DNA from: Lamellibrachia columna
Lineage: Eukaryota; Annelida; Polychaeta; Sabellida; Siboglinidae
Reading direction: 5' to 3'
DNA: 64,000 nucleotides
Assembly (NCBI GenBank): GCA_963662155.1
Contig: OY759268.1
Span: 3,269,501-3,333,500, forward strand
Part shown: positions 4,226 through 62,817 of the stretch, piece after piece
Layout of the letters: every line of letters starts with the position of its first letter
How positions within the stretch are numbered: the stretch's first letter is position 1
The notes under the pieces: model-generated
Seen by the model: the letters and a program-made list of their open reading frames with translations, nothing else
Databases searched by the model: none
What the model was told of the DNA's origin: nothing
Made by a program: the position numbers and the translations under genes

Positions 4226-4331
4226 ATGCTGTGGGATGGTGATGAAGAAGAAGGAAACAAAATCAGCGACCGGTATCGTTGCCAGCCTTACCCTGGAATA
4301 TATGGAAAAGGAGGAGAACAGCAATTGCATC
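4226..4331. other. Non-satellite island inside the satellite (copy 1)
   Basis: About 100 bp that does not follow the 29-bp pattern. It shares ACCGGTATCGTTGCC and a following GGAATATA segment with the island at 4960-5040, so one sequence seems to have been carried along with the array. I do not recognise it. Confidence 0.55.
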
Positions 4332-4959
4332 TCTCATGTGTAAACGCTGTGAACTCCATATATTGTGAGGAAATGCTGTTCGTTCCATGTCTTATGAATA
4401 AATTCTATGGACTCCACCTCTTATGAGCATATGCTTTTGAATCCATGTCTTGAGAGTCAATGCTGTGGTCTCCACATCTCATAAATAAGTAAAGTGTACT
4501 CCATCTCTAGTCAGTAAAACTGTGGACCCCATTTCTTGAGATTCAATGTTTTTGAAAGCATAAGTCGTGAGAAAATGCTGTGGACTTTATCACTCATTAG
4601 AAAATAATATTTACTCCATCTCAAGTCAGTACAAGCTGTGGACCCCATCTCTACTCAATAAAAGCTATGGACCCCATCTCTTGAGAGTCAATGCTTTGGA
4701 CTGCATCAGTCGTTAAAAAATGCAGTGTACTCCACCTCTGATGAGAAAATGTTGTCATCTCCAACTCTCATGGGTAAATACTTTGAACAAAAACTTTGGA
4801 CTCCATCTCTCATGAGTATTTGCTATGGATTCCATCTATCGTGAGTAGATATCATGTACCCATCACTCATGGGTATATATTGCATGCTCCATGTCTTAAG
4901 ATTAAATGCTGTGGACTCCATATCTTCTGAGTAAGTGCCATGGACTCCACCGCTCCGTA

Positions 4960-5040
4960 GCTAATGCCGCGGCCTAGTTATGAAGAAAAATTACCGGTAT
5001 CGTTGCCCCGGCCTTCAGGGAATATAAGGTAAATAACCCT
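4960..5040. other. Non-satellite island inside the satellite (copy 2)
   Basis: A shorter, diverged partner of the island at 4226-4331. It shares TTATGAAGAA, ACCGGTATCGTTGCC and GGAATATA in the same order, followed by a return to the satellite unit. No coding potential is evident. Confidence 0.55.
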
Positions 5041-5454
5041 TACATCTCTCAGTTGTCAATGCTATGGACTCTATCTCTTGAGAGTCAATACTGTGGACTT
5101 CATCTCTCATGAGAAAATGTTGTGGACTACATCTCTTATGTGAAAATGTTGTGAACTCCAACTCTCATTGTTAAATACTGTGTACTCAATCTCCCATGAG
5201 TAAACGCTGTGCACGCTATCTTTCATTAGTATAAGCGGTGGACTCTATCTCACAGGTGTAAATTCTGTGGCCTCCAACTCTCGCGAATTAATGCTGCGTA
5301 GTCCCTATCGAATGAGCATATTCTGTGGACTCCTTATCTCATAAATAAATAATGTGTATTCCGACTGTAGTCAATAAAAGCTGTGAACCCAATCTCTTGA
5401 GACTCAATGGTTTTGACTGCATCAGTCGTGAGAAAATGCTGGGTCGGTGTCTAG

Positions 5455-8336: not shown

Positions 8337-8948
8337 GAGCCATACATTTTGAAATCTTTGATAAGCATGTTGCTAAATTCCCTGACAGGAGAATAGAAAT
8401 GTATTTATCTGATTTACTGTGAAATGAAGGTATCATTATTCTGCCTGCAGAATTTATTGTTGGATTATTTATTAAGGAAATAGTGTTAAGCTAATTTTGC
8501 ATATTCATCGGCGTATTGCATTAAACTGTACATATTTTTTTTACGTAGTTCTGAAAGCAATGGGAACCGTGTTCTTGAGTCATGTGATTTTAAAATCAAT
8601 TGTTTTATAGGAATCTGGGGGTGTTGTGAGAACACGATTTTAAGCAATTCAATAAGTGACTGATGTTGTGATCAAGGAGTTAACATTATCACATAATGCA
8701 AATCAAAGCAAGTTATTGTATACAATATTCTTTTATTAGTAAATAAACAAATGGGATATGTATACAATTTCTTCATGATGTTCTGCAGACCTCGTGTACA
8801 TCCATGCAATGTGGTAGAATAGTTTTATTTCACGAGTCTCATTCGAGCCTCATTCGCCTACGCTGTCGAAAGGTCCAATCCTGGAATGCTCTGCTAAATG
8901 CCAGAAATAGTAGATCAAACAACTCTTCACCCAGTAGAACACGAAATT
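8337..8948. other. AT-rich interval, nothing recognised
   Basis: No open frame of note, RNA gene or repeat was identified. The sequence directly precedes the first copy of the triplicated unit. Confidence 0.5.
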
Positions 8949-9222
8949 CTGAAACAATAAATGGTATGTAAGAAATTAAGTGATATGTAAGATCATAAAT
9001 ATGTAGTTTCAGGTAGTGAAATCTATTGAGGTGCTGCTAATTAGGACATTGCACGGCAGACGCAGACTATGTGTCAATGACAAGTGATGATGCGGAGAAT
9101 GAAAACCATTTTAAGGAAGACTAAATGAGACTATTGGTGGAAATTTAAACAGAATACGAAAAAAAAATTGCCTAACCATGTGAAAATCAATCCTTTCGTT
9201 TTTATATAGTTACCTCTATCAA

Positions 9223-9289
<67 letters not shown>

Positions 9290-9870
9290 TGAAATATTAA
9301 ATGGTATGTAAGAAATTAAGTGGTATGTAAGATCATAAATATGTCGATTCAGTTAGTGAAATCTATTGAGGTGCTGCTAATTAGGACATGGCACGGCAGA
9401 CGCAGACTATGTGTCAATGACAAGTGATGATGTGGAGAATGAAAACCATTTTAAGGAAGACTAAATGAGACTATTGGTGGAAATTTAAACAGAATACGAA
9501 AAAAATATTGGCTAGCCATGTGAAAATCAATCCTTTCGTTTTTATATAGGTACCTCTATCAACTAATATATATATATATATATACATATATTATATATTC
9601 TGAAATATTAAATGGTATGTAAGAAATTAAGTGGTATGTAAGATCATAAATAAGCCGATTCAGGTAGTGAAATCTATTGAGGTGGTGCTAATTAGGACAT
9701 GGCACGGCAGACGCAGACTATGTGTCAATGACAAGTGATGATGTGGAGAATGAAAACCATTTTAAGGAAGACTAAATGAGACTATTGGTGGAAATTTAAA
9801 CAGAATACGAAAAAAAAAGTACTTACCCATGTGAAAATCAATTCTTTCGTTTTTATATAGGTACCTCTAT

Positions 9871-9872
<2 letters not shown>
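8949..9872. repeat. Triplicated ~275-bp unit, each followed by (TA)n
   Basis: Near-identical units start at about 8949, 9289 and 9600. All run from CTGAAAYAWTAAATGGTATG to GGTACCTCTATCAA and each ends in a (TA)n tract (about 9224-9287, 9567-9598 and from 9873). Most of the spacing difference (340 against 311 bp) lies in the TA tract. The copies differ at few positions, so the duplication is recent. Confidence 0.88.
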
Positions 9873-9916
<44 letters not shown>

Positions 9917-10007
9917 TTGTATATATATATGTATATATATATATATATGTATATATATATGTATATATATATATGTATATATATTTGTATATATATGTAT
10001 ATATATG

Positions 10008-19092: not shown

Positions 19093-20504
19093 GATTTAAC
19101 AAGATTTGCCATCCAAGCCAAAGGCCCAGATGGCAAGTGGACAAGGAAGCCATTGGCTTATCGAGAGTCCATCAATGTTCATCTACTTATAACCCGCCCT
19201 CCTGAGATATGTGTCAACCTTGTTTTTAAACATATTCACGCTGCTAACAATTACACAATCTGTAGATAATTTGTTCCATTCATTTATTGTCCTCTGTGAG
19301 AACGAGTGCTTCCTGATGTCCAATCTACATTGATCCTTTACTAATTTTACCTCATGTCCTCTAGTTCTGCTATCCTTCTTGAGTGAGAAAAACATATTTC
19401 TATCAATATTTTCATACCCATTCAATATCTTAAAAACTTCAATCTGATCTCCTCTTAACCTCCTTGTCTCTAGAGTTGTTAAACCACATTCTTTCAGGCG
19501 TTCTTCATAACTAAGGTCTCTCAGTTCTGGAATCATTTTAGTTGCTCTCCTTTGTATGCGTTCAAGCGTATCTATATCCTTCTTACGATACGGTCTCCAT
19601 GCTTGTATACAGTATTCTATATGAGGTCTAACTATTGCTTTATAAAGAGGTATAATTAACTTTTTTCCCTTGTATGTTATGTTTCTTCTAATCAATCCAA
19701 GAATTTGATTACCCTTTGAAGCTACAATACCACACTGCTCTGAAACTTTCATATCAGCGCTTATTGTAACTCCTAAGTCCTTTTCTTTTACAGTAGTACC
19801 CAGAACAGTATCTCCCATTTTATAGTTTACATTCAAGTTTCCATGTCCTGTATGTAGGCATTTACATTTCCCAAAATTGAACAGCATCTGCCATTTCTCA
19901 GACCGTTTCACTAATCTGTCTAGATCGTTTTGTAAATGTTGTTTATCACCATCAGTATTAACCTTTCTAAACAGTTTTGTGTCGTCCGCAAATTTCAGTA
20001 CGTTACTTGTTATACTGTCGTCCAAGTCATTGATATAAATTAAGAATAATATAGGTCCTAATACTGATCCTTGAGGTACCCCACTCAAAACCGATTTCCA
20101 ATTTGAAACTTCTCCATCTACTACAACTCGTTGTCTTCTGTCAGTCAGCCATTGTTCTATCCAGTCAGTTATGCTATCCCCGATACCATGGCCTTTTAAT
20201 TTAAGTAGTAATCTTTGATGTGGCACTTTGTCAAAAGCTTTCTGAAAATCTAAGTAGATAATATCTACTGGCGATCCCACGTCTATCCACTTAGTTATTT
20301 CTTCCAAAAAACATAACATATTTGTTAAGCATGACCTCGCTTTAAGGAATCCATGTTGAGATGAATTTAATAATTTATGCTTAACGAGGAAGTCCACCAT
20401 ATGGTCTTTAATTAACCTTTCTAATAATTTACAAATCACTGACGTTAAACTCACTGGTCTGTAATTCTCTGACTTATTTCTCGAACCCTTTTTAAATCGT
20501 TACA
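19093..20504 (-). mobile_element. 5'-truncated CR1-like LINE (best preserved copy)
   Basis: Minus-strand insertion. The 5' break is at about 20504, inside the codons for FKKGSRNK, and the 3' end lies at about 19093 in GGCAAATCTTGTTAAATC. It carries an uninterrupted ORF2 C-terminal frame. The least-decayed state of this copy suggests that it is the youngest of the family in the window. Confidence 0.9.
19183..20454 (-). CDS. LINE ORF2 fragment: reverse transcriptase palm to C-terminus (423 aa)
   Basis: Reverse transcriptase that would copy LINE RNA at a nicked target site. Visible motifs in order: HGFLKARSCLTN (fingers, about residue 35), IIYLDFQKAFDKVPHQRLLL (first catalytic Asp, about 65-85), SGVPQGSVLGPILFLIYIND (about 125), LKFADDTKLFRKV (catalytic FADD, about 155), GKCKCLHTGHG, EKDLGVTISAD, then the thumb-like block PLYKAIVRPHIEYCIQAW and RIQRRATKMIPELRDLSYEE. 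It ends LRRAGYK. The upstream endonuclease half is missing. The nominal Met is internal: the frame stays open to about 20499 and is cut by the truncation, so no native start exists. The similarity is to CR1-group elements often labelled jockey-like. Confidence 0.93.
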   Translation of the reverse strand: MSLTSVICKLLERLIKDHMVDFLVKHKLLNSSQHGFLKARSCLTNMLCFLEEITKWIDVGSPVDIIYLDFQKAFDKVPHQRLLLKLKGHGIGDSITDWIEQWLTDRRQRVVVDGEVSNWKSVLSGVPQGSVLGPILFLIYINDLDDSITSNVLKFADDTKLFRKVNTDGDKQHLQNDLDRLVKRSEKWQMLFNFGKCKCLHTGHGNLNVNYKMGDTVLGTTVKEKDLGVTISADMKVSEQCGIVASKGNQILGLIRRNITYKGKKLIIPLYKAIVRPHIEYCIQAWRPYRKKDIDTLERIQRRATKMIPELRDLSYEERLKECGLTTLETRRLRGDQIEVFKILNGYENIDRNMFFSLKKDSRTRGHEVKLVKDQCRLDIRKHSFSQRTINEWNKLSTDCVIVSSVNMFKNKVDTYLRRAGYK

Positions 20505-36441: not shown

Positions 36442-38612
36442 TCAATAACAATTTATGAAGATACTATCATAACGTACCATAGGCCTGCATCTCTTCTTGT
36501 CTTTTCCCATAAGCCGTAAGGATCGTTGGGGCAGCATTGATGACTTTCTAACCAGCTCTCTCCACGTTTCCCTGTTCTCGACAGCCCTCTGGGAGTCAGC
36601 GAACTCCATTCCTGTCCACTCTTTGATGTTATCTTCCCACTTCTGCTTCTGTTTACCTCTTCGTCCCCACCCCTCTCTTACAGTACCTTGCAAGAGAGTC
36701 TTTGCAAGGCCAGATGATCATGATACATGACCGTACCACTTCAGTTTACGCTTCTTAACTGTTGTAAGAAGGTCGTCATATGGTCCGATGGCTTTTTTGA
36801 TTTTGTTGCGGACAGCTTCGTTAGTAACATGGTCTTTGTATGATATGCGCAAGATCTTCCGAAAGCATCTCATTTCCATGGCTTTTATAATTTTCTGTAG
36901 ATCTGCTGAGAGGGTCCATGTTTAAGAAGCGTACAGAAAGATGAACATGACAAGGGAGCGCATCAGCCTTATTTTCGAACTGACAGTGATGTTTCTGTCG
37001 TTCCATAAGGGTTACAACCTTGTTAGTGCTGCTGTTGTTTGTGCAATCCTAACAAGTATCTCCGGTTTGGAACCCTCATCTGTGATAATTAATCCCAAGT
37101 ACCTGAAGCTTGTTACTGTCTCAAGTCTCTGTTCATTAACTTAGACCTCTGTGCTGATGCCTTGTGTGTTGTTCTTCATCAGTTTGGTCTTTTCGGCACT
37201 GATCTCCATGCCGTATGATGTAGATGTTTTCTCGAGGCGCTCCACCAAATTGACTAGTTCTTGTTCATCTCCTGCTAAGCCGTCGATGTCGTCAGCAAAA
37301 CGAAGATTGGTGATTGTCCTGCCTCCAATGCTGACAGTGCCTTGATGGTTTTCTAAAGCATTAGTCACGATCCTTTCCAGAAAAATGTTGAAGAGCGTTG
37401 GTGATAGTAGGCATCCTTGTCGAACTCCGACTGTTGCTCGAAACCAGTCTTCTATGCTGCTGTTGAAGATTACTGCACTGGTGGCATTGTCATATAGGTG
37501 TTCAATGGTTCGGACAAGCTTGGAGCCAATGTTGTACTTCCTCATGATTGCCCATAAGGCCGAATGCCATACTTTATCAAAGGCCTTCTTGAAATCTATG
37601 AAGACATGATACAGGCTTTGCTGATGTTGAAGGTGTTTCTCGCAAAGGATTCTAAGGTTGAAGATATGTTCACTGGTGCTATGTCCTGCTCGAAAACTCG
37701 CTTGTTCTTCAGCGATGATCTCTTCTGCCTGGGGTTTGTGTCTGTTGAGTAGTATCTTCAACACGACTTTGCTCGGGTGGTTGATGAGGCTGATTGTTCT
37801 GTAATTTTGGCACATCTGTAGGTTGCCTTTCATGGGAAGTGTGATGATCAGTGGCTGAGTCTATGGAGTGGGCCATTTTCCTGTCTGCCAGATCTTGTTG
37901 CAGATTGTTGTAACTGTGGTAATCAAGGTTTCTCCCCCAGCTTGAACCAGTTCTGCTGGTATGTTATCAATTCCAGCTGACTTTCCTTTTTTCAGAGACT
38001 TTACTTCAGCCTTCACTTCTTCAAGAAGAATGGGGCAGTCGTCCTCTTCAGTAGTCTGTGGACAATTTAGTACTGCTGGGTCTCCGTTGGTATTGTGGCT
38101 GTACAGTTTTGAGCAGTATGCTGTCCATCGATTGAGGATCTGCTGTTCTTCTGTCAGGCATTTCCCTGATTTGTCTTGGATAGTGGTAGTTATCCCTTTC
38201 TTCGCTGATGTCAGGTCTTTCACTATTTGATAAGCCTTCTTGCTGTTGTTCTTGCTCAAGCTGTCTTCAATTTTACAGCATTGTTCTGCTATCCAGTTAT
38301 CTTTTGCTCTTCTCATATCTAGTTTGATCTTTTTGTAGACTTCTCTGTATTTTGCTGCACCTTCAGGATCACATTTTCTCATTTTCAATTCCCTTCTTTT
38401 GTCACAGAGATCTAGGATGTCTGCTCTGACCCATGGTTTCTTTGTCCGACGGTGTTTTCCAAGGATCTCGCTGGCTGTGTCGGTCACTATTTTGTTGAAG
38501 GTGTTGGTCAGCAAGTTCACGTCGGTATATTTGTCATCCAGTATAATAAGTGGTGCAAATTTCCCACCTATCATTGCTTTGAATGCTTCTGCTACATCAG
38601 GCCTGGATACTA
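36442..38612 (-). pseudogene. RTE-like LINE ORF2, 5'-truncated, three nonsense codons
   Basis: One continuous minus-strand frame with stops only at about 37860 (TAG), 37141 (TAA) and 36729 (TGA). N-terminal linker: KKPWVRADILDLCDKRRELK and KSLKKGKSAGIDNIPAELVQ. RT: EEQASFRAGHSTSEHIFNLR, VFIDFKKAFDKVWHSALW (first Asp), VGVRQGCLLSPTLFNIFLE and LRFADDIDGLAGDEQEL (catalytic FADD). Then ISAEKTKLM, RYLGLIITDEGSK, an RKILRISYKDHV segment, KWYGHV and GRRGKQKQKWEDNIKEW, as in RTE-type ORF2 proteins. The endonuclease is missing, and the 5' break lies about 95 bp from a (CA)n array. The absence of frameshifts indicates modest age. Confidence 0.9.
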
Positions 38613-39673: not shown

Positions 39674-40115
39674 GGGCACGGACCACAGTCACTTTTCCCA
39701 TAGACGACCATTATAACATTCTTGCGCCTACATTGAAAATTTATCCTACAATTTTTTTTTTAAATTCACAGAAAATGACAGACCCACTAAGACACCTGGT
39801 GTGTAAAATTCGTGAAAATGACATACCTCCTTTTCGCACAAATTGCTTCAAAGCATGATGCCACTGCATTTCTGCCATGAAATTCCCCAGTTTCCAAAAT
39901 ATGAGTACATCCTGCCTAACAGCCACTGTGTCCTTACGCAACTGGTATACCTAATGAAAAATGGCATCATTTCAAAGCTTAGATGCTACTGTGCACAAGA
40001 ACATCACTTCACTCCCTCATCCACACAAATTCTGCTGTCACAAATAAACCCTATCTGCACAATGAATGTTTTCCTTGGGATCCTTTACGATTGATTCTGA
40101 CTGTGGTCCGTGCCC
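39674..40115. mobile_element. 442-bp non-autonomous element with perfect 18-bp TIRs
   Basis: The left end GGGCACGGACCACAGTCA (39674-39691) is matched exactly in inverted orientation at 40098-40115. The interior has no transposase. Its first 88 bp recur at 53116, where a shorter derivative ends in the same outer bases. Flanks (TATATAC and TAATTAA) do not show a clear target duplication, so the superfamily is open. Confidence 0.8.
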
Positions 40116-40159
40116 TAATTAATTTCCGACATCTCACAAACCGTCACGAAAGTTATACC

Positions 40160-40164
40160 AAATC
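40160..40164. other. Target-site duplication, left (AAATC)
   Basis: Five bases directly before the first TG of the left LTR, identical to 51136-51140. Five bp is the usual stagger of Ty3/gypsy integrases. Confidence 0.85.
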
Positions 40165-40521
40165 TGAAGAAAACCACTCTCCTTCAGATGACAGTTGTCT
40201 TTAATCAGGAAATGATCAACTGTTGCACTCTGAAAGGAGTAACAAAATAACATGAATACTAAATACTAGCTAACTAAGCTAAACAGCATTGACAGTGAAA
40301 TGTGCGCATAGTAATGTATCTTGTACCTCAATGTAATGTCATCAGCACACAGTGTTCACTGTCGACCCATTCGTGTGGCAGGCTACTAGCACAATGTACC
40401 AGTGCAATTGACTGCAGTGGGCACTTGATGTCCAACCATGCATAACGATACGCATCACTGACCAGTGACTACCACATATCTATAGGCCATACACTTGTAG
40501 GCCACTTGCTACATCTCATCA
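40165..40521 (-). repeat. LTR 1 (3' LTR of the left copy)
   Basis: Starts TGAAGAAAACC and ends ATCTCATCA on the plus strand, thus TG...CA in either orientation. It differs from LTR2 and from LTR3 at four positions each, by my reading. It carries AACTG where the others have AGCTG in the candidate self-pairing motif. Confidence 0.95.
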
Positions 40522-40535
40522 TCCCCCCCACGTTC
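40522..40535 (-). other. Polypurine tract of the left copy
   Basis: The minus strand reads AACGTGGGGGGGA directly before the 3' LTR, the usual position of the plus-strand primer. The right copy has the same tract with one G fewer at 45817-45829. Confidence 0.75.
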
Positions 40536-40556
40536 ATGAACTATGAATGTAAAGAC

Positions 40557-43500
40557 TTACACCCACGTCCCTGACACTGGCTCGTAACGACGAGGCGGTC
40601 GACGCAATCGTGGTGCGCGCAGGACTCGAGGCGATGACTGTTCCGGAGGTCGTGCAGAGGGAGTACGAGGTAGCGATGAAGGTGGCCCGTCGAAGGTTGC
40701 TGGAGGTGCATCTACGTCAGGAGTTGCGGTAGCTGGATGAATCTCTGGCGCAGCGGCTGCTGGAGAAGGCGGCGTTGTTGCTGCCTGGGGTTTTGAGACA
40801 GCAGGAGACGCTGGCGTAGCTGGTGGATGGAGCTCTGGCGCAGTGGCTGCATGATACTGATCCGGCGTGGTTGCTGTCATCGTGTATGGGCGTGGTTGGA
40901 GAGCAAGGTCGTTTGACGCGGGACACCGAGATGACAGTGGCTCGCCGATAGATGTAGAGGGCTGGACAAATTGCCTTAAGAACCGTCTGTTGAGGAGGGT
41001 GAGTCGGCCCGAGCCGTCAATCTTGACCAGGTACTGTTCATTGTCTCCTACGTCCACGACGACGCCTGATCTGTCCCATTTGTTCGGATGGGGCCCACGC
41101 TGGTTTTGGACATATACTCTCGCGCCGATCACCAGGGGCGGTAGGGCCTGCGAGTGGGCATTTAGGGCCTCAGAGGTGCGCGCGAATCGAGCGCGCATAG
41201 CATTCTCCTTTGCCGACCAAGCCTCCCGCTACATCGGGCGGATGGATGGATTCTCAAACTTAGTACACCTGTTGACGAATGAGAACGCGTCTCTGATGGG
41301 TCTGCCAAATATCACTTCCGCAGGGGATACGTTACAATCGGGGTCGGGTGTGTTCCTGAGTTGCAGCATGGCTCGTAACAGCCCATCATTATCTAGCGAG
41401 CCGGTCGGGCCTATGTTATCCATAAGAGTGCGCTTAGCCTTCTTGACCGCTACTTCAGCCCGGTCGTTAGACTGCGGAAAGGCAACCGAAGATATGCGAT
41501 GGTGGACCCCCCATCGCGACAGGAAGTTGGAGGTTTCGGAAGCTGTGAATTCAGGGCCCCCATCACTTGACAGGATTTCAGGGACGCCGAAAGTGGCGAA
41601 CATCTGGCGAAGACAGGCAATGAGGCCAGTAGCTCCGGAGTAGGGTGTCCCCGGGGGCGTTTTGTAGATGTCCACCCAACCCGACAGACGGTCACCAACG
41701 ACGAGATAATGGCATCCGCCGTAATCGCAGAAGTCCGCGAAAACTGACTCAAACGGAGTCGACGGCGTGTCAAGCGCCGCTGGGGGAGTCGCAGCTTGTG
41801 ACGGTGCTGTTTTGTTGCATGAGCGACATCTATCTCGGGTCTCCTGAATGGCGGTGGATATGCCCGGCCAGAATACGATCGAACGGGCACGGGATTCCAT
41901 CGATGACACTCTCTGGTGGGCAGAATGGAGAGTGCGAAGTACCTCGTTACGAAGGGAGGGAGGAATTACCACCCGATCCTGGTATAGGACGGCCCCGTCT
42001 GAGACACAAAGGCTCTCGCGGTACATCCAGAATGCCGCAACGGTGTCGTCCGTTTCGCGACGTGTGTCTGGGAAGCCTTCTTCAATGGCCACCATGAGCA
42101 GGCGCATGCCAGGATCTGATGACGTCTCCATGGCGATGCGCTCCCAGGATAGCGCGGTGAATGATGAAGCATCGCGACGAATGGCTGCGATAATTGCGCA
42201 CTCCGCAGAATCCATTCCGGAGCATAGGGTGAGACTTGTGAGCTCTGCATACTCACTTTGTGATGGATGGCGAGATGTTGCATCAGCAGCGGTGTTTGTC
42301 TTCCCGGGGAGATGCGTCACTTTGAAATGCCAAGGCAGTGTCCGTTGTTTGAGGCGAAATATCCGAGAATTTTTAATTTCGTCGAGTGTTCGGTCGCCAA
42401 GGATCTTGACCAGAGGCTTGTGATCAGTGACGACGACAAGGTCATCGCAGCCCTGTGTGAAGTAGCGTGACTGTTCTAGGCCCCATGCAACAGCCAAGGC
42501 CTCGCCCTCTATTGGCGCGTAGCGTTGCTCGGTAGGGGTAAGGAAACGGGAGCCCGCCAAGGTTATCTTCCATCCATCATCGCAACACCCCGGCAAGGTC
42601 GTTGCACAATCACAATGTTTTTGACTAAGGAAATAACCGATCCCGAGCTTCGACCAATCGGGTCGAAGGCACGTCCGTCTTCGTAGGTCGAAGATCTCGA
42701 CACCATATCTGATTGCCTCGCTAATGCTCGACTTTGAGGCTTGGAATGCGCTCTCCAGGTCTACTGACCAACGGAAGGGTGTCTTTGGGCTCAAGAATGG
42801 CTTGAATGGTCTCATGATATCCCGGAGTTGAGCATAGTTCGTCACTTGGTTAACCAAACCAAACCAGGACCGGACGTCGGTCGTGGATGTTGGTGTCGGG
42901 AAATCCCGGATAGCGTCCAGATATTTCGGGAGTGGCTCAATCGTAGCGTTGGAGATGCGGAATCCGGCGAAGTCTACGGTACGTTGTGCGAACTGGAATT
43001 TGTCCGGGTTGAGGACTACCCCTGCTCTGCCGACGAGGATGAGGTAATCTATGGTCCTCCACCAATGATTCTGTAGCTCAACATCCCAGTGAACGGTGTC
43101 ATCGATGCATCGCTCCTTGCGCTGGAAGTTGGCAATGATCTCATCAAAATGGCGGTTGTACCCGTCCCCAGATGATAGGAAGCCTTGTGGTGCACGAGTG
43201 TATCGGCATCTGCCGAAAGGGGTGATTAACGTCGTCAGGTGCCTGTCCGAATCTCGGAGGGGAACAGAATGATAGCCGTTCCAAGCATCCGTTACGGTTT
43301 TCCAGGATTCGCCGGGCACGCGTCTCGCCAGATGGAATGGAAATTCACTGGAGAATGTTTCGCGTGCACAATGCTTGTTCAGTGGGGAAGGTCGACAGTC
43401 CTTCGTGGGGAGCCGTTCTGTTTCCGGGTGACCACCATTCGGTGACACCATGTCACAGCTTCACCATGTGGCACACGTTCGATGACGCCATGGGCCTCGT

Positions 43501-44610
43501 CACGCAGGAGATCCTGGTGTACGCGCTCCTGCCAATGCACAGGGATCAAGGCCGGGGTGTGCACCGCCTTAGGAGTTGCACCTTCCACTGGGGGCCCTGC
43601 CATGCAGGGCAGAGGGCGGTGAGGGCATGTGTTGAATGTTGACGATGCAAATTCCTGGAGTAGTCATGCCTTCATCTTTGCGTTATTTGCCTCCGTGCAA
43701 TCGAAGGGAAGCACGGTTGGACGATTGGGGACTATAGTGCGTGGAGGGCATGAGCAGGGTCCGTCGCTCTCAGCAAGGGCCGATACGCACCCAGCGTTAC
43801 TGGCACGGAGTCCACAGTCCTGTTGATTGCGGGGGCCAGGAGGTCCGTCGATGGAGGGTGCAGAAGCTGGAATGCGCGGTAACGGGCCGATCGAGGGGAA
43901 GTCGAAAGGGACGATGCCAAGGTCCACCATGGCCTCGCAGCTGAGGTAGAACCCGTGCGCGGCTGGACTCACATACACCATTGTCGCGCAGGACTATCGA
44001 TCATTAGCAGAAGACGATGCTCTGAGGCGGAGAACCACGGCCCCAGTGATTTCAATACGCGTCTTATTGGCCGCGGTCAAGTCAACAGACACAGGCAAGA
44101 GGTCTGCTGCAGAGAATCCAGCAGCCAGGAACCCTGACATCGACCATAGGCATGATTGCGCGCCGGTATCGGCTATGGCCGTGATGATTGACGGGTTGGT
44201 TCTGGGGCATGGGCGTCCGAAGGCGAGGTAGTCTGATGGTGTCACGGAGACCTGCACCTGGAGTGTCGGGTGGTCGAGGAACCGCGTCTTTCGCCACTCG
44301 CCTTTAGACCAGATGTGGTGCGACAATTTCACAGATGATTGCGCGGGTGGCTCGTTGGCGGGTCGCCGACGTCGACGACGGCGACGACGGCGATGCTGGC
44401 ATGGAGCACTAGTAAAGGCCGACACTTGGGTGAGCGTGGTAGCAACTTCCGGCTGTGGCGGCTGCATGCTGCGGTTGCGTGGTCGCTCGCTCGGGCGCCT
44501 TCCGCGGCGTGCTCGGTAGCAGGCAAGACAGACGCGGTGTGGTTTGGTGTTCCATCCTCTTGCGCCCTCAGAGAACAGAGCGAATACCTTCTTGCAATCG
44601 GGGCAGATCG
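40557..44610 (-). pseudogene. Pol gene, left copy
   Basis: The protease part (44467-43994) keeps DTGAQSCLW but ends at a copy-specific TAG where the right copy has CAG (about 44001). A 15-bp deletion near 43580 removes five codons before RT. A 1-bp deletion at about 43386 (GGGAAGG for GGGAAAGG) shifts the frame inside RT. From there to 41229 a 740-codon frame holds CIDDTVHWD, VVTDHKPL (RNase H Asp intact), the zinc-binding and D/D/E integrase boxes without interruption. The shared TAG at 41229-41231 precedes the C-terminal domain (41198-40557), which ends in a Pro/Ala-rich tail and ...YEPVSGTWV. Confidence 0.92.
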
Positions 44611-45399
44611 CTGTCTGACCACGTCCCGGCTGGGAAGATACAGCGCGGGTACCGAGGTCGTTGTGATTCTTTTGAAAGTAGAGATGCCAGCAGCCGATGA
44701 AGGAAGGGCGTTTCGCGCCATCTCTTTTCCCTCAACTAGGGTAATGACATCGTTCACGGTGCGCTCGAGTATTTTGTCTGCCCCGAGGATTTCACGGCGA
44801 ATATCCATGTCGGCGATCCCGGCGATGAGGACGTCCCTGACGATTATTTATGTGAAGTCGACAGCGGTTGGAACCGGGCAGGCACATTGGACGGAGTAGG
44901 CGCAAGTTTCGGCCTTACCGCGTACACGGGCTGCAAACGACCGGAAAGATTCTTCGCGCTTTTGGCGGAGGAGAACCAGCTCAGCCCGGTTGACGCCGGT
45001 GGCGACAGCTATCACCGCCATGGCTTTCATTGCAGCCATCAGCTCACCTGTGGGCTTCACGATAATGCCAGGGTCCGATTTTAGTAGTCCATTCCCGAGT
45101 TCATCGGCCGCACACTGGAATAGCTGGGAGGAGGAGTTGTGGGGATCGATGCCCGATCCCAGGGCAAACGCGACCCATCGGCGTGAAAAAACATTCCATT
45201 GTTCCTCTGAGACTCCCACATCGACCCGGGGCTGGTCCAATTTCGGCCCTCGTCATGCAGCAGCTGGTCCGGTGTAGGCCTGCTGGACGAGATGGACAGA
45301 TGTGTGGTTGCCCACGAGCGCGATCGCTACTTCTTGGGGTTTCTGTCCAGTCGAGAACCCACAGCCCGGCACGACACACTGGATGTCTATGGTCGCCAT
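44611..45399 (-). pseudogene. Gag-like gene, left copy
   Basis: Same layout as the right copy, including TGA at 45253-45255 and TAA at 44848-44850. Differences are a few substitutions, for example DQPRVDV for NQPRVDV and QKREES for QEREES. Retaining the same two stops shows that both copies descend from a template already carrying them. Confidence 0.85.
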
Positions 45400-45459
45400 G
45401 CTCAGCTCAAGGGATGACGCGGGTTGCACTCGTTGCCGCAAATGACGTGCAGTTGATCA

Positions 45460-45816
45460 TGAAGAAAACCACTCTCCTTCAGATGACAGTTGTCTTTAAT
45501 CAGGAAATGATCAGCTGTTGCACTCTGAAAAGAGTAACAAAATAACATGAATACTAAATACTAGCTAACTAAGCTAAACAGCATTGACAGTGAAATGTGC
45601 GTATAGTAATGTATCTTGTACCTCAATGTAATGTCATCAGCACACAGTGTTCACTGTCGACCCATTCGTGTGGCAGGCTACTAGCACAATGTACCAGTGC
45701 AATTGACTGCAGTGGGCACTTGATGTCCAACCATGCATAACGATACGCATCACTGACCAGTGACTACCACAGATCTATAGGCCATACACTTGTAGGCCAC
45801 TTGCTACATCTCATCA
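45460..45816 (-). repeat. LTR 2 (shared middle LTR)
   Basis: Serves as the 5' LTR of the left copy and the 3' LTR of the right copy. It differs from LTR3 at two positions that I could find (AAAAGAG against AAAGGAG, and CTAGCAC against CTGGCAC). Confidence 0.95.
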
Positions 45817-45850
45817 TCCCCCCACGTTCATGAACTATGAATGTAAAGAC

Positions 45851-48800
45851 TTACACCCACGTCCCTGACACTGGCTCGTAACGACGAGGCGGTCGACGCA
45901 ATCGTGGTGCGCGCAGGACTCGAGGCGATGACTGTTCCGGAGGTCGTGCAGAGGGAGTACGAGGTAGCGATGAAGGTGGCCCGTCGAAGGTTGCTGGAGG
46001 TGCATCTACGTCAGGAGTTGCGGTAGCTGGATGAATCTCTGGCGCAGCGGCTGCTGGAGAAGGCGGCGTTGTTGCTGCCTGGGGTTTTGAGACAGCAGGA
46101 GACGCTGGCGTAGCTGGTGGATGGAGCTCTGGCGCAGTGGCTGCATGATACTGATCCGGCGTGGTTGCTGTCATCGTGTATGGGCGTGGTTGGAGAGCAA
46201 GGTCGTTTGACGCGGGACACCGAGATGACAGTGGCTCGCCGATAGATGTAGAGGGCTGGACAAATTGCCTTAAGAACCGTCTGTTGAGGAGGGTGAGTCG
46301 GCCCGAGCCGTCAATCTTGACCAGGTACTGTTCATTGTCTCCTACGTCCACGACGACGCCTGATCTGTCCCATTTGTTCGGATGGGGCCCACGCTGGTTT
46401 TGGACATATACTCTCGCGCCGATCACCAGGGGCGGTAGGGCCTGCGAGTGGGCATTTAGGGCCTCAGAGGTGCGCGCGAATCGAGCGCGCATAGCATTCT
46501 CCTTTGCCGACCAAGCCTCACGCTACATCGGGCGGATGGATGGATTCTCAAACTTAGTACACCTGTTGACGAATGAGAACGCGTCTCTGATGGGTCTGCC
46601 AAATATCACTTCCGCAGGGGATACGTTACAATCGGGGTCGGGTGTGTTCCTGAGTTGCAGCATGGCTCGTAACAGCCCATCATTATCTAGCGAGCCGGTC
46701 GGGCCTATGTTATCCATAAGAGTGCGCTTAGCCTTCTTGACCGCTACTTCAGCCCGGTCGTTAGACTGCGGAAAGGCAACCGAAGATATGCGATGGTGGA
46801 CCCCCCCATCGCGACAGGAAGTTGGAGGTTTCGGAAGCTGTGAATTCAGGGCCCCCATCACTTGACAGGATTTCAGGGACGCCGAAAGTGGCGAACATCT
46901 GGCGAAGACAGGCAATGAGGCCAGTAGCTCCGGAGTAGGGTGTCCCCGGGGGCGTTTTGTAGATGTCCACCCAACCCGACAGACGGTCACCAACGACGAG
47001 ATAATGGCATCCACCGTAATCGCAGAAGTCCGCGAAAACTGACTCAAACGGAGTCGACGGCGTGTCAAGCGCCGCTGGGGGAGTCGCAGCTTGTGACGGT
47101 GCTGTTTTGTTGCATGAGCGACATCTATCTCGGGTCTCCTGAATGGCGGTGGATATGCCCGGCCAGAATACGATCGAACGGGCACGGGATTCCATCGATG
47201 ACACTCTCTGGTGGGCAGAATGGAGAGTGCGAAGTACCTCGTTACGAAGGGAGGGAGGAATTACCACCCGATCCTGGTATAGGACGGCCCCGTCTGAGAC
47301 ACAAAGGCTCTCGCGGTACATCCAGAATGCCGCAACGGTGTCGTCCGTTTCGCGACGTGTGTCTGGGAAGCCTTCTTCAATGGCCACCATGAGAAGGCGC
47401 ATGCCAGGATCTGATGACGTCTCCATGGCGATGCGCCGATGCGCTCCCAGGATAGCGCGGTGAATGATGAAGCATCGCGACGAATGGCTGCGATAATTGC
47501 GCACTCCGCAGAATCCATTCCGGAGCATATGGTGAGACTTGTGAGCTCTGCATACTCACTTTGTGATGGATGGCGAGATGTTGCATCAGCAGCGGTGTTT
47601 GTCTTCCCGGGGAGATGCGTCACTTCGAAATGCCAAGGCAGTGTCCGTTGTTTGAGGCGAAATATCCGAGAATTTTTAATTTCGTCGAGTGTTCGGTCGC
47701 CAAGGATCTTGACCAGAGGCTTGTGCTCAGTGACGACGACAAGGTCATCGCAGCCCTGTGTGAAGTAGCGTGACTGTTCTAGGCTCCATGCAACAGCCAA
47801 GGCCTCGCCCTCTATTGGCGCGTAGCGTTGCTCGGTAGGGGTAAGGAAACGGGAGCCCGCCAAGGTTATCTTCCATCCATCATCGCAACACCCCGGCAAG
47901 GTCGTTGCACAATCACAATGTTTTTGACTAAGGAAATAACCGATCCCGAGCTTCGACCAATCGGGTCGAAGGCACGTCCGTCTTCGTAGGTCGAAGATCT
48001 CGACACCATATCTGATTGCCTCGCTAATGCTCGACTTTGAGGCTTGGAATGCGCTCTCCAGGTCTACTGACCAACGGAAGGGTGTCTTTGGGCTCAAGAA
48101 TGGCTTGAATGGTCTCATGATATCCCGGAGTTGAGCATAGTTCGTCACTTGGTTAACCAAACCAAACCAGGACCGGACGTCGGTCGTGGATGTTGGTGTC
48201 GGGAAATCCCGGATAGCGTCCAGATATTTCGGGAGTGGCTCAATCGTAGCGTTGGAGATGCGGAATCCGGCGAAGTCTACGGTACGTTGTGCGAACTGGA
48301 ATTTGTCCGGGTTGAGGACTACCCCTGCTCTGCCGACGAGGATGAGGTAATCTATGGTCCTCCACCAATGATTCTGTAGCTCAACATCCCAGTGAACGGT
48401 GTCATCGATGCATCGCTCCTTGCGCTGGAAGTTGGCAATGATCTCATCAAAATGGCGGTTGTACCCGTCCCGAGATGATAGGAAGCCTTGTGGTGCACGA
48501 GTGTATCGGCATCTGCCGAAAGGGGTGATGAACGTCGTCAGGTGCCTGTCCGAATCTCGGAGGGGAACAGAATGATAGCCGTTCCAAGCATCCGTTACGG
48601 TTTTCCAGGATTCGCCGGGCACGCGTCTCGCCAGATGGAATGGAGATTCACTGGAGAATGTTTCGCGTGCACAATGCTTGTTCAGTGGGGAAAGGTCGAC
48701 AGTCCTTCGTGGGGAGCCGTTCTGTTTCCGGGTGACCACCATTCGGTGACACCATGTCACAGCTTCACCATGTGGCACACGTTCGATGACGCCATGGGCC

Positions 48801-49929
48801 TCGTCACGCAGGAGATCCTGGTGTACGCGCTCCTGCCAATGCACAGGGATCAAGGCCGGGGTGTGCACCGCCTTAGGAGTTGCACCTTCCTTGAGATGGA
48901 TCTCCACTGGGGGCCCTGCCATGCAGGGCAGGGGGCGGTGAGGGCATGTGTTGAATGTTGACGATGCAAATTCCTGGAGTAGCCATGCCTTCATCTTTGC
49001 GTTATTTGCCTCCGTGCAATCGAAGGGAAGAACGGTTGGACGATTGGGGACTATAGTGCGTGGAGGGCATGAGCAGGGTCCGTCGCTCTCAGCAAGGGCC
49101 GATACGCACCCAGCGTTACTGGCACGGAGTCCACAGTCCTGTTGATTGCGGGGGCCAGGAGGTCCGTCGATGGAGGGTGCAGAAGCTGGAATGCGCGGTA
49201 ACGGGCCGATCGAGGGGAAGTCGAAAGGGACGATGCCAAGGTCCACCATGGCCTCGCAGCTGAGGTAGAACCCGTGCGCGGCTGGACTCACATACACCAT
49301 TGTCGCGCAGGACTGTCGATCATTAGCAGAAGACGATGCTCTGAGGCGGAGAACCACGGCCCCAGTGATTTCAATACGCGTCTTATTGGCCGCGGTCAAG
49401 TCAACAGACACAGGCAAGAGGTCTGCTGCAGAGAATCCAGCAGCCAGGAACCCTGACATCGACCATAGGCATGATTGCGCGCCGGTATCGGCTATGGCCG
49501 TGATGATTGACGGGTTGGTTCTGGGGCATGGGCGTCCGAAGGCGAGGTAGTCTGATGGTGTCACGGAGACCTGCACCTGGAGTGTCGGGTGGTCGAGGAA
49601 CCGCGTCTTTCGCCACTCGCCTTTAGACCAGATGTGGTGCGACAATTTCACAGATGATTGCGCGGGTGGCTCGTTGGCGGGTCGCCGACGTCGACGACGG
49701 CGACGACGGCGATGCTGGCATGGAGCACTAGTAAAGGCCGACACTTGGGTGAGCGTGGTAGCAACTTCCGGCTGTGGCGGCTGCATGTTGCGGTTGCGTG
49801 GTCGCTCGCTCGGGCGCCTTCCGCGGCGTGCTCGGTAGCAGGCGAGACAGACGCGGTGTGGTTTGGTGTTCCATCCTCTTGCGCCCTCAGAAAACAGAGC
49901 GAATACCGTCTTGCAATCGGGGCAGATCG
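45851..49929 (-). pseudogene. Pol gene, right copy (protease-RT-RNase H-integrase), frameshifted
   Basis: The largest frame (841 codons, 49786-47261) has an Arg run, the aspartic protease motif IADTGAQSCLW (DTG at 100-102), RT VDLSPLNKH (about 364), TDAWNGYHSVPL (about 398), RAPQGFLSS and RCIDDTVHWD (IDD at 460-462). RNase H follows: RPDWSKLGIGYF (about 606), IEGEALAVAW (about 657), VVTEHKPL (Glu where the left copy has Asp) and AADATSRH. An 8-bp insertion at about 47430 shifts into integrase: LHSAHQRVSS, WPGIS and CRSCNK (zinc-binding), VFADFCDYGG, SSDGGPEF and DRAEVAVKK (catalytic D, D, E). One extra C at about 46801-46807 shifts again, and a TAG (46523-46525) precedes the C-terminal domain with PNKWDRSGVVVDVGDNEQYL. 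Confidence 0.92.
49838..49924 (-). other. Zinc-ribbon-like CPDC...CLAC segment between gag and protease (right copy)
   Basis: In the frame that leads into pol, CPDC is followed about 21 residues later by CLAC, with EGARGWNTKPH between. This C-X2-C / C-X2-C arrangement stands where most elements have CCHC knuckles. It lies in the -1 frame relative to the gag frame. The left copy has the same segment at 44519-44605. Confidence 0.7.
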
Positions 49930-50718
49930 CTGTCTGACCACGTCCCGGCTGGGAAGATACAGCGCGGGTACCGAGGTCGTTGTGATTCTTTTGAAAGACG
50001 AGATGCCAGCAGCCGATGAAGGAAGGGCGTTTCGCGCCATCTCTTTTCCCTCAACTAGGGTAATGACATCGTTCACGGTGCGCTCGAGTATTTTGTCTGC
50101 CCCGAGGATTTCACGGCGAATATCCATGTCGGCGATCCCGGCGATGAGGACGTCCCTGACGATTATTTATGTGAAGTCGACAGCGGTTGGAACCGGGCAG
50201 GCACATTGGACGGAGTAGGCGCAAGTTTCGGCCTTACCGCGTACACGGGCTGCAAACGACCGGAAAGATTCTTCGCGCTCTTGGCGGAGGAGAACCAGCT
50301 CAGCCCGGTTGACGCCGGTGGCGACAGCTGTCACCGCCATGGCTTTCATTGCAGCCATCAGCTCACCTGTGGGCTTCACGATAATGCCAGGGTCCGATTT
50401 TAGTAGTCCATTCCCGAGTTCATCGGCCGCACACTGGAATAGCTGGGAGGAGGAGTTGTGGGGATCGATGCCCGATCCCAGGGCAAACGCGACCCATCGG
50501 CGTGAAAAAACATTCCATTGTTCCTCTGAGACTCCCACATCGACCCGGGGCTGGTTCAATTTCGGCCCTCGTCATGCAGCAGCTGGTCCGGTGTAGGCCT
50601 GCTGGACGAGATGGACAGATTTGTGGTTGCCCAAGAGCGCGATCGCTACTTCTTGGGGTTTCTGTCCAGTCGAGAAGCCACAGCCCGGCACGACACACTG
50701 GATGTCTATGGTCGCCAT
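49930..50718 (-). pseudogene. Gag-like gene, right copy (two nonsense codons)
   Basis: Structural protein of the element. It probably starts at 50718 with MATIDIQCVVPGCGFSTGQ (a Cys pair that may bind metal). It continues after an in-frame TGA (50572-50574) with PRVDVGVSEEQWNVFSRRW, FRSFAARVRGKAETC and, after a TAA (50167-50169), DVLIAGIADMDIRREILGAD and VEGKEMARNAL. These blocks match the gag of K02A2.6-like elements. Both stops sit at the same sites in the left copy. Each is consistent with a C-to-T change on the coding strand. Confidence 0.85.
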
Positions 50719-50764
50719 GCTCAGCTCAAGGGATGACGCGGGTTGCACTCGTTGCCGCAAATGA

Positions 50765-50778
50765 CGTGCAGTTGATCA
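50765..50778 (-). other. Candidate primer binding site, non-tRNA type
   Basis: The bases abutting the 5' LTR in element orientation read TGATCAACTGCACG. They do not begin with TGG, the complement of a tRNA CCA end. They can pair with CAG(T/C)TGATCA inside the LTR, extended by GTGC beyond a 3-base bulge. That suggests self-priming as in Tf1/sushi elements. The same site is at 45446-45459 for the left copy. Confidence 0.45.
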
Positions 50779-51135
50779 TGAAGAAAACCACTCTCCTTCA
50801 GATGACAGTTGTCTTTAATCAGGAAATGATCAGCTGTTGCACTCTGAAAGGAGTAACAAAATAACATGAATACTAAATACTAGCTAACTAAGCTAAACAG
50901 CATTGACAGTGAAATGTGCGTATAGTAATGTATCTTGTACCTCAATGTAATGTCATCAGCACACAGTGTTCACTGTCGACCCATTCGTGTGGCAGGCTAC
51001 TGGCACAATGTACCAGTGCAATTGACTGCAGTGGGCACTTGATGTCCAACCATGCATAACGATACGCATCACTGACCAGTGACTACCACAGATCTATAGG
51101 CCATACACTTGTAGGCCACTTGCTACATCTCATCA
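50779..51135 (-). repeat. LTR 3 (5' LTR of the right copy)
   Basis: Outermost 5' LTR in element orientation. Would drive transcription of the right copy and, by read-through, of the whole tandem. Confidence 0.95.
50814..50879 (-). promoter_or_regulatory. LTR core promoter and polyadenylation motifs
   Basis: On the minus strand the LTR has a TATA-like TATTTAG (50879-50873). About 34 bases on is an initiator-like TCAGAG (50847-50842), followed by CAGCTGATCA (50836-50827) and an ATTAAA polyadenylation variant (50819-50814). This spacing is plausible for a short R region. LTR1 and LTR2 carry the same arrangement. Based on motif spacing only. Confidence 0.45.
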
Positions 51136-51140
51136 AAATC
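51136..51140. other. Target-site duplication, right (AAATC)
   Basis: Follows the CA end of the right LTR and matches the left flank. No such pair surrounds the middle LTR. Confidence 0.85.
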
Positions 51141-53115: not shown

Positions 53116-53214
53116 GGGCACGGACCACAGTCACTTTTCCCATAGACGACCATTATAACATTCTTGCGCCTACATTGAAAATTTATCCTACAATTTTTTT
53201 TTTAATCCGTGCCC
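53116..53214. mobile_element. 99-bp deletion derivative of the 39674 TIR element
   Basis: Identical or nearly so to 39674-39762 (through CCTACAATTTTTTTTTT). It then jumps to TCCGTGCCC, the last nine bases of the right TIR. The interior was lost by a deletion joining the T run to the right end. Confidence 0.8.
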
Positions 53215-54587
53215 ATACACGGGTGATTCTTGACGAAAGTGTAGTGACTGCGACAAACGGTGGCGTCACATCCCGCAGCCTGAATAACCGAGGCTATTGA
53301 AATGGTTAGTGGCGCCACAGGTGGGGAATTTGGGCTTAAGAGTCCGCCATCTTTCGGATAGACAAGTGTGACGGAGTAACGGGATATTCATTTATCTTCC
53401 GGACTTGCTCGTTATTGTGAAATATTACGACGGTCAGCGGTGTATAGCGTCATTTCAGAAACGTTACGTTTTAAAACATACTTACTAAAACATTTATCAA
53501 ACATGTTTATGATATTCGGCCACCGTTTTACAGTGCCAGTGGCCACGTTTTTCCACGACTACGATTAGCGTCTTTGAGTTTGGGCATCGCCGCCAGAGGC
53601 AGCGAAGGTAAGGCAGAATGTTTTGTAGCAGTGTTTTAATTTTAAACAAAATTACTGGCCTAACAGTATTCTTATTTAATACAATGCAGGTGTTTCTGCC
53701 TATATTTAGACTTACTGGAGTGTAGGTAGAATTAGCTAATGGTAAGAATTTGGTTCGAAGAACGTCACAAATTGGTGCCACCAAAAATAAGGATGTCAAT
53801 GAAAATTTCAAATTGCAAATCTTTTTACGAGATGGTGGTAGCTATGATAAATTTAATTGTGAAAAAAGTTTAAGAATTGAAGTACTTTTTTAAAGACGTA
53901 AATACGTTTTTTAGATTATTGGCACTGAACCTAAAAACGGCACCAAAATGTGGCATTTTTTATAGCCACTAATAAAAACACCTATGTTCAAAGTTAATCG
54001 AACAAAGTCAAAGAAGAGTTGGGCTGAACTGAAGTTGATGTTGCGATTCCACCATCTGTACTCCTTTAGTGGTATGTGATTATGTACACAGTAATTGGCT
54101 CTGTAATCATGTAATAATAAGAAACCAGTAGTAACTACTGCTGTCACGGTTCCGGGTCTAGAACCAAAACTGTGGGTCCCAGTAGGTACTGCGGGTATTG
54201 GTTCTTTCTGGACCTGGAACTGTCACAGCACCAGTCATCAGTAATTAATTCACACATTGTGGTATTCTAACTGATCATCAGAGAATCACATTATTATTGA
54301 CTTTTTTAGAGTATGGTCAATTAGATGATTTATATAATAAATATGGTGAATTAATTAAAACAGATCAGAGCTTGATTCAAGACATGTGTTTGATCTGTCA
54401 TGCATTTAGTATCCTGGCTATGTTTGACATAAATATTAGTTTACACAAAGGTAGGGCAATGTAGGGAATTTATACATAGGAGCCAGTTAATTGCAGATTC
54501 TAACTTTGAGTTCCGTCCTGATTGGCTAAAGAAGAAAGGACGGAACAGGTCAACTCTTGTGCTAGCATCTGTCGCCTAAAAATATAT
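53215..54587. other. Unclassified interval
   Basis: A 104-codon minus frame (53497-53811) has no recognised domain. At 54149-54219 GGTTCCGGGTCTAGAACCA and an inverted, imperfect partner form a possible hairpin. The rest shows nothing. Confidence 0.45.
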
Positions 54588-61220: not shown

Positions 61221-61914
61221 CTAGGACCACACAAACACCAACTAGGACCACTCAAACACCAACTAGGACCACACAAACACCTACTAGGACCACTCAAACA
61301 CCAACTAGGACCACACAAACACCAACTATGACCGCTCAAACACCAACTAGGACCGCTCAAACACCAACTAGGACCACTCAAACACCAACTAGGACCACAC
61401 AAGCACCTACTAGGACCACTCAAACACCAACTAGGACCACTCAAACACCAACTAGGACCACTCAAACACCAACTAGGACCACTCAAACACCAACTAGGAC
61501 CACACAAACACCAACTAGGACCACACAAACACCAACTAGGACCACTCAAACACCAACTATGACCACTCAAACACCAACTAGGACCACTCAAAACACCAAC
61601 TAGGACCACACAAACACCAACTAGGACCACTCAAACACCAACTAGGACCACACAAACACCAACTAGGACCACACAAACACCAACTATGAGCACACAAACA
61701 CCTACTAGGACCACTCAAACACCAACAAGGACCACACAAAGACCAACTAGGACCACTCAAACACCTACTAGGACCACTCAAACACCAACTAGGACCACTC
61801 AAACACAAACTAGGACCACTCAAACCCCAAATAGGACCACACAAACACCTACTAGGACCACTCAAACATCAACTAGGACCACACAAACACCAACTAGGAC
61901 CACTCAAACACCAA
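61221..61914. repeat. 21-bp minisatellite (about 33 units) encoding TRTTQTP
   Basis: Units of AGGACCACTCAAACACCAAC plus T. Because 21 is a multiple of three, the plus strand reads a long mucin-like (TRTTQTP)n peptide in two frames (61139-61603 and 61686-62000), split by one extra A near 61588. There is no signal peptide, and the flanks do not look like a gene. It lies just past the polyadenylation signal of the UBZ4 gene, so it may be only a minisatellite. Confidence 0.9.
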
Positions 61915-62018: not shown

Positions 62019-62516
62019 TTATTCTATCAAACACGTGTCTATATGTTTGTTGATCTCTGCGTTGGAAGAACTCGACTGAAATTCCTTGGCACATATTGGA
62101 CACTCAAGTTTACGATTTGCGCCTTCGTTTTCTTCCCCACTGTTCCCTTTGGCAAACAACGATGTAATGCTCGACTGTTTCGCTCGTTTACTTTTCGATT
62201 GACTGTCACTGTTTGTTGATAGAGGGCGCTTCACTGAGACGCTTGTCGTCAATTTGCTTTTGACCCCGTTTGAAGAATGTGAGCTGGTGGTGCAGCTGGC
62301 TTCTGATTGGTTGTCAGGGATGCTGCAACAGCTCCCTCTGTTGGTGTCTGATGGCAGCATCTTCGCAGGCTTGAAGAAGTTCTTTATCGTCACAGGGGGC
62401 GTGACTGCTTTCATGAGACATTTCTTGTTGACTGGCGTCACAGGTTCCGTGACGGAGACAGATGTCACATGACTTACAACTGACGAATCGTTGCCCAGTG
62501 ATGGAGCGGACGGATC
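62019..62516 (-). CDS. Last exon of a UBZ4 zinc-finger protein with PCNA-binding-like motifs
   Basis: Encodes 165 residues and a TAA. The acceptor is CATGTTCCAG before GATCCG. Rich in Ser/Thr/Lys and probably disordered. At exon residues 43-50 TIKNFFKP resembles the aromatic end of a PIP box. At 114-121 QSSITSLF fits Q-x-x-I-x-x-L-F, close to a PIP box, and follows a basic SKSKRAK. The C-terminus is a zinc finger, CPICAKEF...NKHIDTC, with C139, C142, H158 and C162. The C-X2-C-X15-H-X3-C pattern is that of UBZ4 ubiquitin-binding fingers found in DNA-damage-tolerance proteins such as RAD18 and WRNIP1. Joined to the exon at 62818-63001 in phase 0. The protein is probably nuclear. I do not know which gene it is. 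Confidence 0.75.
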   Translation of the reverse strand, partial: DPSAPSLGNDSSVVSHVTSVSVTEPVTPVNKKCLMKAVTPPVTIKNFFKPAKMLPSDTNRGSCCSIPDNQSEASCTTSSHSSNGVKSKLTTSVSVKRPLSTNSDSQSKSKRAKQSSITSLFAKGNSGEENEGANRKLECPICAKEFQSSSSNAEINKHIDTCLIE

Positions 62517-62817
62517 CTGGAACATGATAGTTCTCTGTCAATTCATTATTGGTATACTCCAAACTTGTATTTGTTAGTAGGTCTTCAGATAGAAAGTACA
62601 AAATTGTGAGTTACATTTAAAGGGTTTCGGGGGGAAAATGTGTTAGATGTCAATTCGGGCAACATTTAGATGGGCAAAATTTCAGAATAAAAATCTGCAA
62701 TAAACATTTCATCCATTGCTACCATTTGCTTTGATGTTCAACCAACCTGATTCGCTATGGACTAAATGAACTGTGGACGCAGCTTTAACCTTTTTATTTT
62801 GTTATCATCTTACTCAC

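Follow-up and report, generated by a model that had tools for sequence, protein, structure and literature searches.

A tandem HERV-K locus, in which two proviruses have a common middle LTR, resembles the locus described here, but it belongs to a vertebrate retrovirus. Three-LTR tandems are already known, especially in plants. According to the accessible parts of PMC11899658, Nipponbare rice carries 28 tandem LTR-retrotransposons, 10 of them with perfect 5-nt duplications, and a rice pangenome of 76 accessions holds 266 such tandems; kangaroo centromeres, Drosophila and yeast are also mentioned there, and integrase-independent recombination of cDNA at the LTR is cited for yeast Ty1. The rice locus TLI2 is similar to ours in having two internal regions, three LTRs and one 5-nt outer direct repeat, with about 99% identity between the internal regions and between the LTRs (PMC11899658, same parts). 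For Arabidopsis, 10 LTR-IN-LTR-IN-LTR elements were reported against 474 LTR-IN-LTR elements; they are of the same structure class, again in a plant host, and the accessible portion of PMC5379124 describes no analysis of unit lesions. The word "tandem" does not occur in the portions of PMC8220671 and PMC8556966 at hand.

The locus that we analysed, which lies in a window of 64,000 nucleotides of Lamellibrachia columna DNA (contig OY759268.1), adds another three-LTR tandem to those known. The rice tandems differ from it in their plant host and in the population haplotypes at hand; for them, the choice between recombination at the locus and a ready-made tandem is left undecided in the accessible parts of PMC11899658. 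At the present locus, the lesions of the two units and the near-neutral differences between them favour duplication after insertion. Such a comparison of lesions and neutrality, unit against unit, is a simple test that can be applied to one locus, and here it favours recombination after insertion.

The tandem spans positions 40160..51140 and has the order LTR-internal-LTR-internal-LTR, with three 357-bp LTRs, all TG...CA, alternating with the internal regions of two units, A and B (Table 1). The pentanucleotide AAATC is present as a single copy at each outer edge. Both flanks of the middle LTR were inspected, and neither carries a target duplication; only element sequence is found there, with primer-side sequence on the left and a polypurine tract on the right. 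Thus, the middle LTR is shared by the two units and the target duplication lies outside only. The original prediction had placed a three-LTR unit with 357-bp LTRs at these coordinates and AAATC at the outer edges but not around the middle LTR, all of which was borne out at both edges. It had also claimed a single insertion rather than two independent ones, which the one target duplication supports; two independent insertions are ruled out, as they would call for a fourth LTR and an inner target duplication, neither of which exists. Chance cannot produce 5.3-kb direct repeats at such identity. Just right of both LTR1 and LTR2, the polypurine tract is seen as a C-run on the plus strand, and it is the minus strand that carries the pol ORFs. 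The element therefore runs from right to left, so that LTR3 is the 5′ LTR and LTR1 the 3′ LTR in the element sense. About 45 bp to the left of the tandem ends a short element (39674-40116) with 17-bp inverted ends, GGGCACGGACCACAGTC; a shorter relative of it, with 90 identical bases, is located 13.4 kb to the right (53116-53224).

Table 1. Positions of the tandem, its two units and their lesions in the window.
Feature	Position	Strand	Remarks
Target-site duplication, left copy	40160..40164	.	AAATC
LTR1	40165..40521	-	357 bp, TG...CA on + strand; 3′ LTR in element sense
Candidate self-primer site in LTR1, 11 nt	40212..40222	+	ATGATCAACTG (+ strand); equals sense-strand sequence beside 5′ LTR
Unit A internal region	40522..45459	-	4938 bp; gag remnant and pol; polypurine tract at left end
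Unit A ORF	41229..43451	-	740 aa; RT, RNase H, integrase; upstream end out of frame after 1-bp deletion at 43388
15-bp in-frame deletion	43584	-	Private to unit A; segment retained in unit B and P0001
Stop by substitution	43664	-	Private to unit A
Further stop by substitution	43996	-	Private to unit A
Unit A candidate self-primer binding site	45450..45460	-	Last LTR base + 10 nt
LTR2	45460..45816	-	Middle LTR common to both units; no flanking target duplication
Unit B internal region	45817..50778	-	4962 bp
1-bp (C) insertion	46801	-	Private to unit B; frameshift in integrase part
Unit B ORF	47261..49786	-	841 aa; protease motif, RT, RNase H; end out of frame past 8-bp insertion
8-bp tandem duplication	47429..47436	-	Private to unit B; frameshift
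gag stop TAA	unit B 50167..50169; unit A 44848-44850	-	D/E in 16/19 relatives with a residue there
gag stop TGA	unit B 50572..50574; unit A 45253-45255	-	Cys in closest relative P0121
Unit B candidate self-primer binding site	50769..50779	-	
LTR3	50779..51135	-	5′ LTR in element sense
Target-site duplication, right copy	51136..51140	.	AAATC

The element is a minus-strand LTR retrotransposon of the Ty3/gypsy group (Metaviridae). Its LTRs begin and end with TG...CA, its target duplication of 5 bp falls in the 4-6 bp range, and the order of the pol domains identified with Pfam, RT-RNase H-integrase, is of the gypsy type. In the 740-aa ORF of unit A, Pfam places RVT_1 at residues 40-166, RT_RNaseH at 255-366, Integrase_H2C2 at 496-550 and rve at 568-656. 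No chromodomain was found after the integrase, in that the two 213-aa C-terminal pol ORFs matched zero Pfam families, a result with which a diverged domain would be compatible. Among the best 120 of 1211 matches, the closest to the pol ORF of unit B was P0001, which heads a cluster of 88 sequences and is 97% identical over 93% of the query. A protein of Lamellibrachia satsuma is identical in pol at 46 of 47 residues and in gag at 35 of 37, a match that by itself points to a siboglinid tubeworm as the probable host. DNA of other copies was sought in two ways: viral_contigs contained 0 matches to a 30-base LTR pattern, and a profile built from the relatives picked out 23 candidate stretches there and 31 in genome_contigs, but not one of these was confirmed as a relative. 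Reverse-transcriptase ORFs (Pfam RVT_1) of other retroelements are present in the window at 19183-20454 and 37141-37833, both on the minus strand.

When the internal regions of units A and B are aligned, 26 of 4937 bases (0.53%) are substituted, and there are five indels of 1, 1, 8, 1 and 15 bp. With four further substitutions in the LTRs, the total is 30 substitutions and five indels, which rules out that one sequence was assembled twice. The original prediction had called the event recent; this holds only in a relative sense, as the internal sites differ by 0.53%, and if the recombination partners were alleles, part of the divergence between A and B is older than the duplication. Seventeen of the 26 internal substitutions are nonsynonymous, including two that create stops in unit A, and nine are synonymous, where the reading frame used near 49960, in the overlap of gag and pol, was our choice. 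Given the observed transition bias, the neutral expectation is 73% nonsynonymous, or 19 of 26 (19:7). The counts are hard to reconcile with omega values up to 0.3 (P = 0.027), whereas an omega of 0.5 is compatible with them (P = 0.27). The differences between the units thus look neutral, being close to the neutral expectation.

Each unit also carries lesions of its own. Unit A alone has two stops, has lost 15 bp in frame between TCC repeats and has lost a further 1 bp; unit B alone has gained 1 bp by insertion and 8 bp by tandem duplication. One private frameshift is thus found in unit A and two in unit B. In pol, all nine amino-acid differences between A and B that are covered by P0001 are private to one unit, five to A and four to B. 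In this comparison, 15 of 21 rows, which come from the out-of-frame start of the unit A piece, were left uncounted (P0001 positions 301-312, 337 and 360-365); columns with two pieces were skipped, and position 668 was added from separate comparisons. Neither unit retains a working gag or pol.

Other lesions are common to the two units, namely the TGA and TAA stops in gag and two changes in the RT. Because the ORF databases contain open frames only, the lack of a stop in the relatives is no test of whether these stops are derived; an acidic residue at the site is such a test. At the TAA site, 19 of 27 relatives have a residue, which is D or E in 16 of the 19. At the TGA site, a residue is present in 13 relatives and varies among them, and P0121, the closest relative, has C; in the P0121 gag comparison, three rows (204-206) at its own deletion junction were not counted. 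In the RT, both units have C and H at columns where P0001 and 12 of 12 other relatives have W and R. Judged by these alignments, the gag and RT lesions common to A and B look derived. At the 19 positions where A equals B and differs from P0001, the majority of the relatives sides with A and B at nine, with P0001 at five and with neither at five, and P0001 has therefore also decayed. One result argues against these lesions having arisen only at this locus: P0138, which lies on another contig and represents a cluster of seven, starts at a Met right after the second shared gag stop and differs by three residues from A and by three from B, the two units differing from each other by four. This start, together with the equal closeness to A and B, indicates that one shared gag stop may be present in other copies and older than the insertion.

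The original prediction had given about two differences between LTR2 and LTR3 and about four between LTR1 and each of them; the counts are exactly 2, 4 and 4 among 357 positions. Five sites are variable, of which three are private to LTR1, one to LTR2 and one to LTR3. The closeness of LTR2 and LTR3, which had been offered as evidence, is not significant by itself (binomial P = 0.21), there being only five variable sites, and a model that takes LTR3 as the source of LTR2 fits better than a star, but not significantly so (2lnLR = 2.8). The two differences between LTR2 and LTR3 match the 1.9 expected from the internal rate, and the four differences of LTR1 from each are as expected if LTR1 and LTR3 predate the duplication. 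One of the variable sites, LTR position 55, is A in LTR1 and G in LTR2 and LTR3. A at this position completes an 11-nt match to a candidate primer site, described below, and is therefore more likely to be ancestral, with G as a shared derived state. This site thus suggests a derived G55 and the right LTR as the source of LTR2.

The retrotransposon Tf1 is self-primed, its RNA pairing with itself. In the element described here, an 11-nt stretch, ATGATCAACTG, consisting of the final LTR base and the following 10 nt, has a second copy within LTR1 on the opposite strand, which would allow one and the same RNA to self-pair in the manner of Tf1. The match is 11 of 11 in LTR1 and 10 of 11 in LTR2 and LTR3, where the longest exact run is 7; the latter two, which are the 5′ LTRs of the two units, thus have one mismatch each. 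An 11-nt match was reached in four of 2000 dinucleotide shuffles of LTR1, a figure to be read with LTR1 being the best of the three LTRs and with TGATCA being palindromic. As sequence evidence, the 11-nt match hints at Tf1-like self-priming. A 97-nt fold from the end of LTR3 lends it no support beyond that of shuffles (z-score 0.11); the minimum-energy fold is without pairing of primer and site, though the centroid pairs 6 nt. A tRNA-type primer site was rejected, given the absence of TGG from the first 60 nt of the internal sequence. This absence is one likeness to Tf1/sushi elements, and another, if real, is the candidate stretch beside the 5′ LTR with its complement in an LTR stretch of the same RNA (PMC6317226 and PMC3601003, accessible parts). 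Unlike those elements, this one shows no Pfam chromodomain in its C-terminal pol ORFs and has a mismatch in both 5′ LTRs. One could envision, tentatively and with some doubt, a non-chromoviral gypsy element in an annelid whose reverse transcription is primed by its own LTR transcript and not by a tRNA, and of which a dead copy was duplicated at this locus, the mismatch of LTR2 and LTR3 as opposed to the match of LTR1 recording the copied LTR. If this is true, then the sequence of events in a tandem can be read from a priming signal. If real, self-priming would also extend beyond the Tf1/sushi group and the two plant lineages that the accessible part of PMC6317226 reports.

As for the origin of the tandem, the original prediction had named unequal recombination between LTRs or a tandem cDNA. 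Comparing one internal region with the other is not decisive, but it favours the first of these, because the differences between the units look neutral, the pol changes are private and the shared gag and RT lesions look derived. We think that one insertion probably decayed, was duplicated by unequal LTR-LTR recombination and then diverged. A single Ty3/gypsy element would have inserted once, creating the 5-bp AAATC duplication, as the anatomy suggests, and would then have decayed at the locus and gained the gag stops. Out-of-register homologous recombination, with the right LTR of one chromatid or homologue joined to the left LTR of its partner, would have yielded the LTR-int-LTR-int-LTR arrangement; a solo LTR is expected from the reciprocal exchange. 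Since then, as their near-neutral differences and the frameshifts private to each show, the units have diverged without selection. We infer both the recombination and its timing after the shared lesions. As a by-product of LTR recombination, the tandem is without a function of its own and can shrink to one copy or to a solo LTR.

The main rival to recombination after insertion, and a less likely one, is that the tandem was integrated in one step, either as a concatemeric cDNA or by reverse transcription of a read-through tandem transcript, after which all parts diverged. A one-step insertion predicts the same outer duplication, and its star-like LTR tree is not rejected, the LTR data being too few; an origin of this kind is kept possible for rice in the accessible parts of PMC11899658. 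With one shared gag stop possibly present in other copies, as P0138 hints, the shared lesions could also predate the insertion. Against it, a gag-dead parent would have had to be mobilised in trans. LTR1 is also the odd one out (4 and 4 differences against 2), and the G55 of LTR2 and LTR3 is left unexplained unless there was a second change or the LTRs were mixed. We regard insertion of a ready-made tandem as unlikely.

Another explanation is an assembly artefact, in which a single-copy locus was represented by both of its diverged alleles, strung together at the LTR. A divergence of 0.53% is conceivable between alleles in an outbred invertebrate, and the internal divergence is within this possible range. 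The junction, however, is exactly one LTR with exact flanks, and the 30 substitutions and five indels rule out a plain repeat of one sequence; we consider such an artefact quite improbable. Least probable of all is integrase-free recombination of a cDNA with the LTR of a resident element, as known from yeast Ty1, which would likewise leave one outer duplication and none inside, but in which the newcomer is expected to come from a working lineage, whereas both units share the gag stops and RT changes and their differences show no synonymous excess.

Several other repeats and ORFs were seen in the window. Several kb (114-5350) are taken up by a satellite-like array, diverged and repeating every 29 bp (and 58 bp), and about three copies of a 340-bp tandem unit with AT runs lie at 8946-9938. 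At 61221-61914, a 21-bp tandem array of 33 copies is open on both strands, giving a Thr/Pro-rich or a Cys/Trp-rich ORF. On the minus strand (62019-62525), a 168-aa ORF has a C-terminal Cys/His zinc-finger-like motif (Pfam PF18112, below cut-off) and presumably resembles the C-terminus of an SPRTN-type protein.
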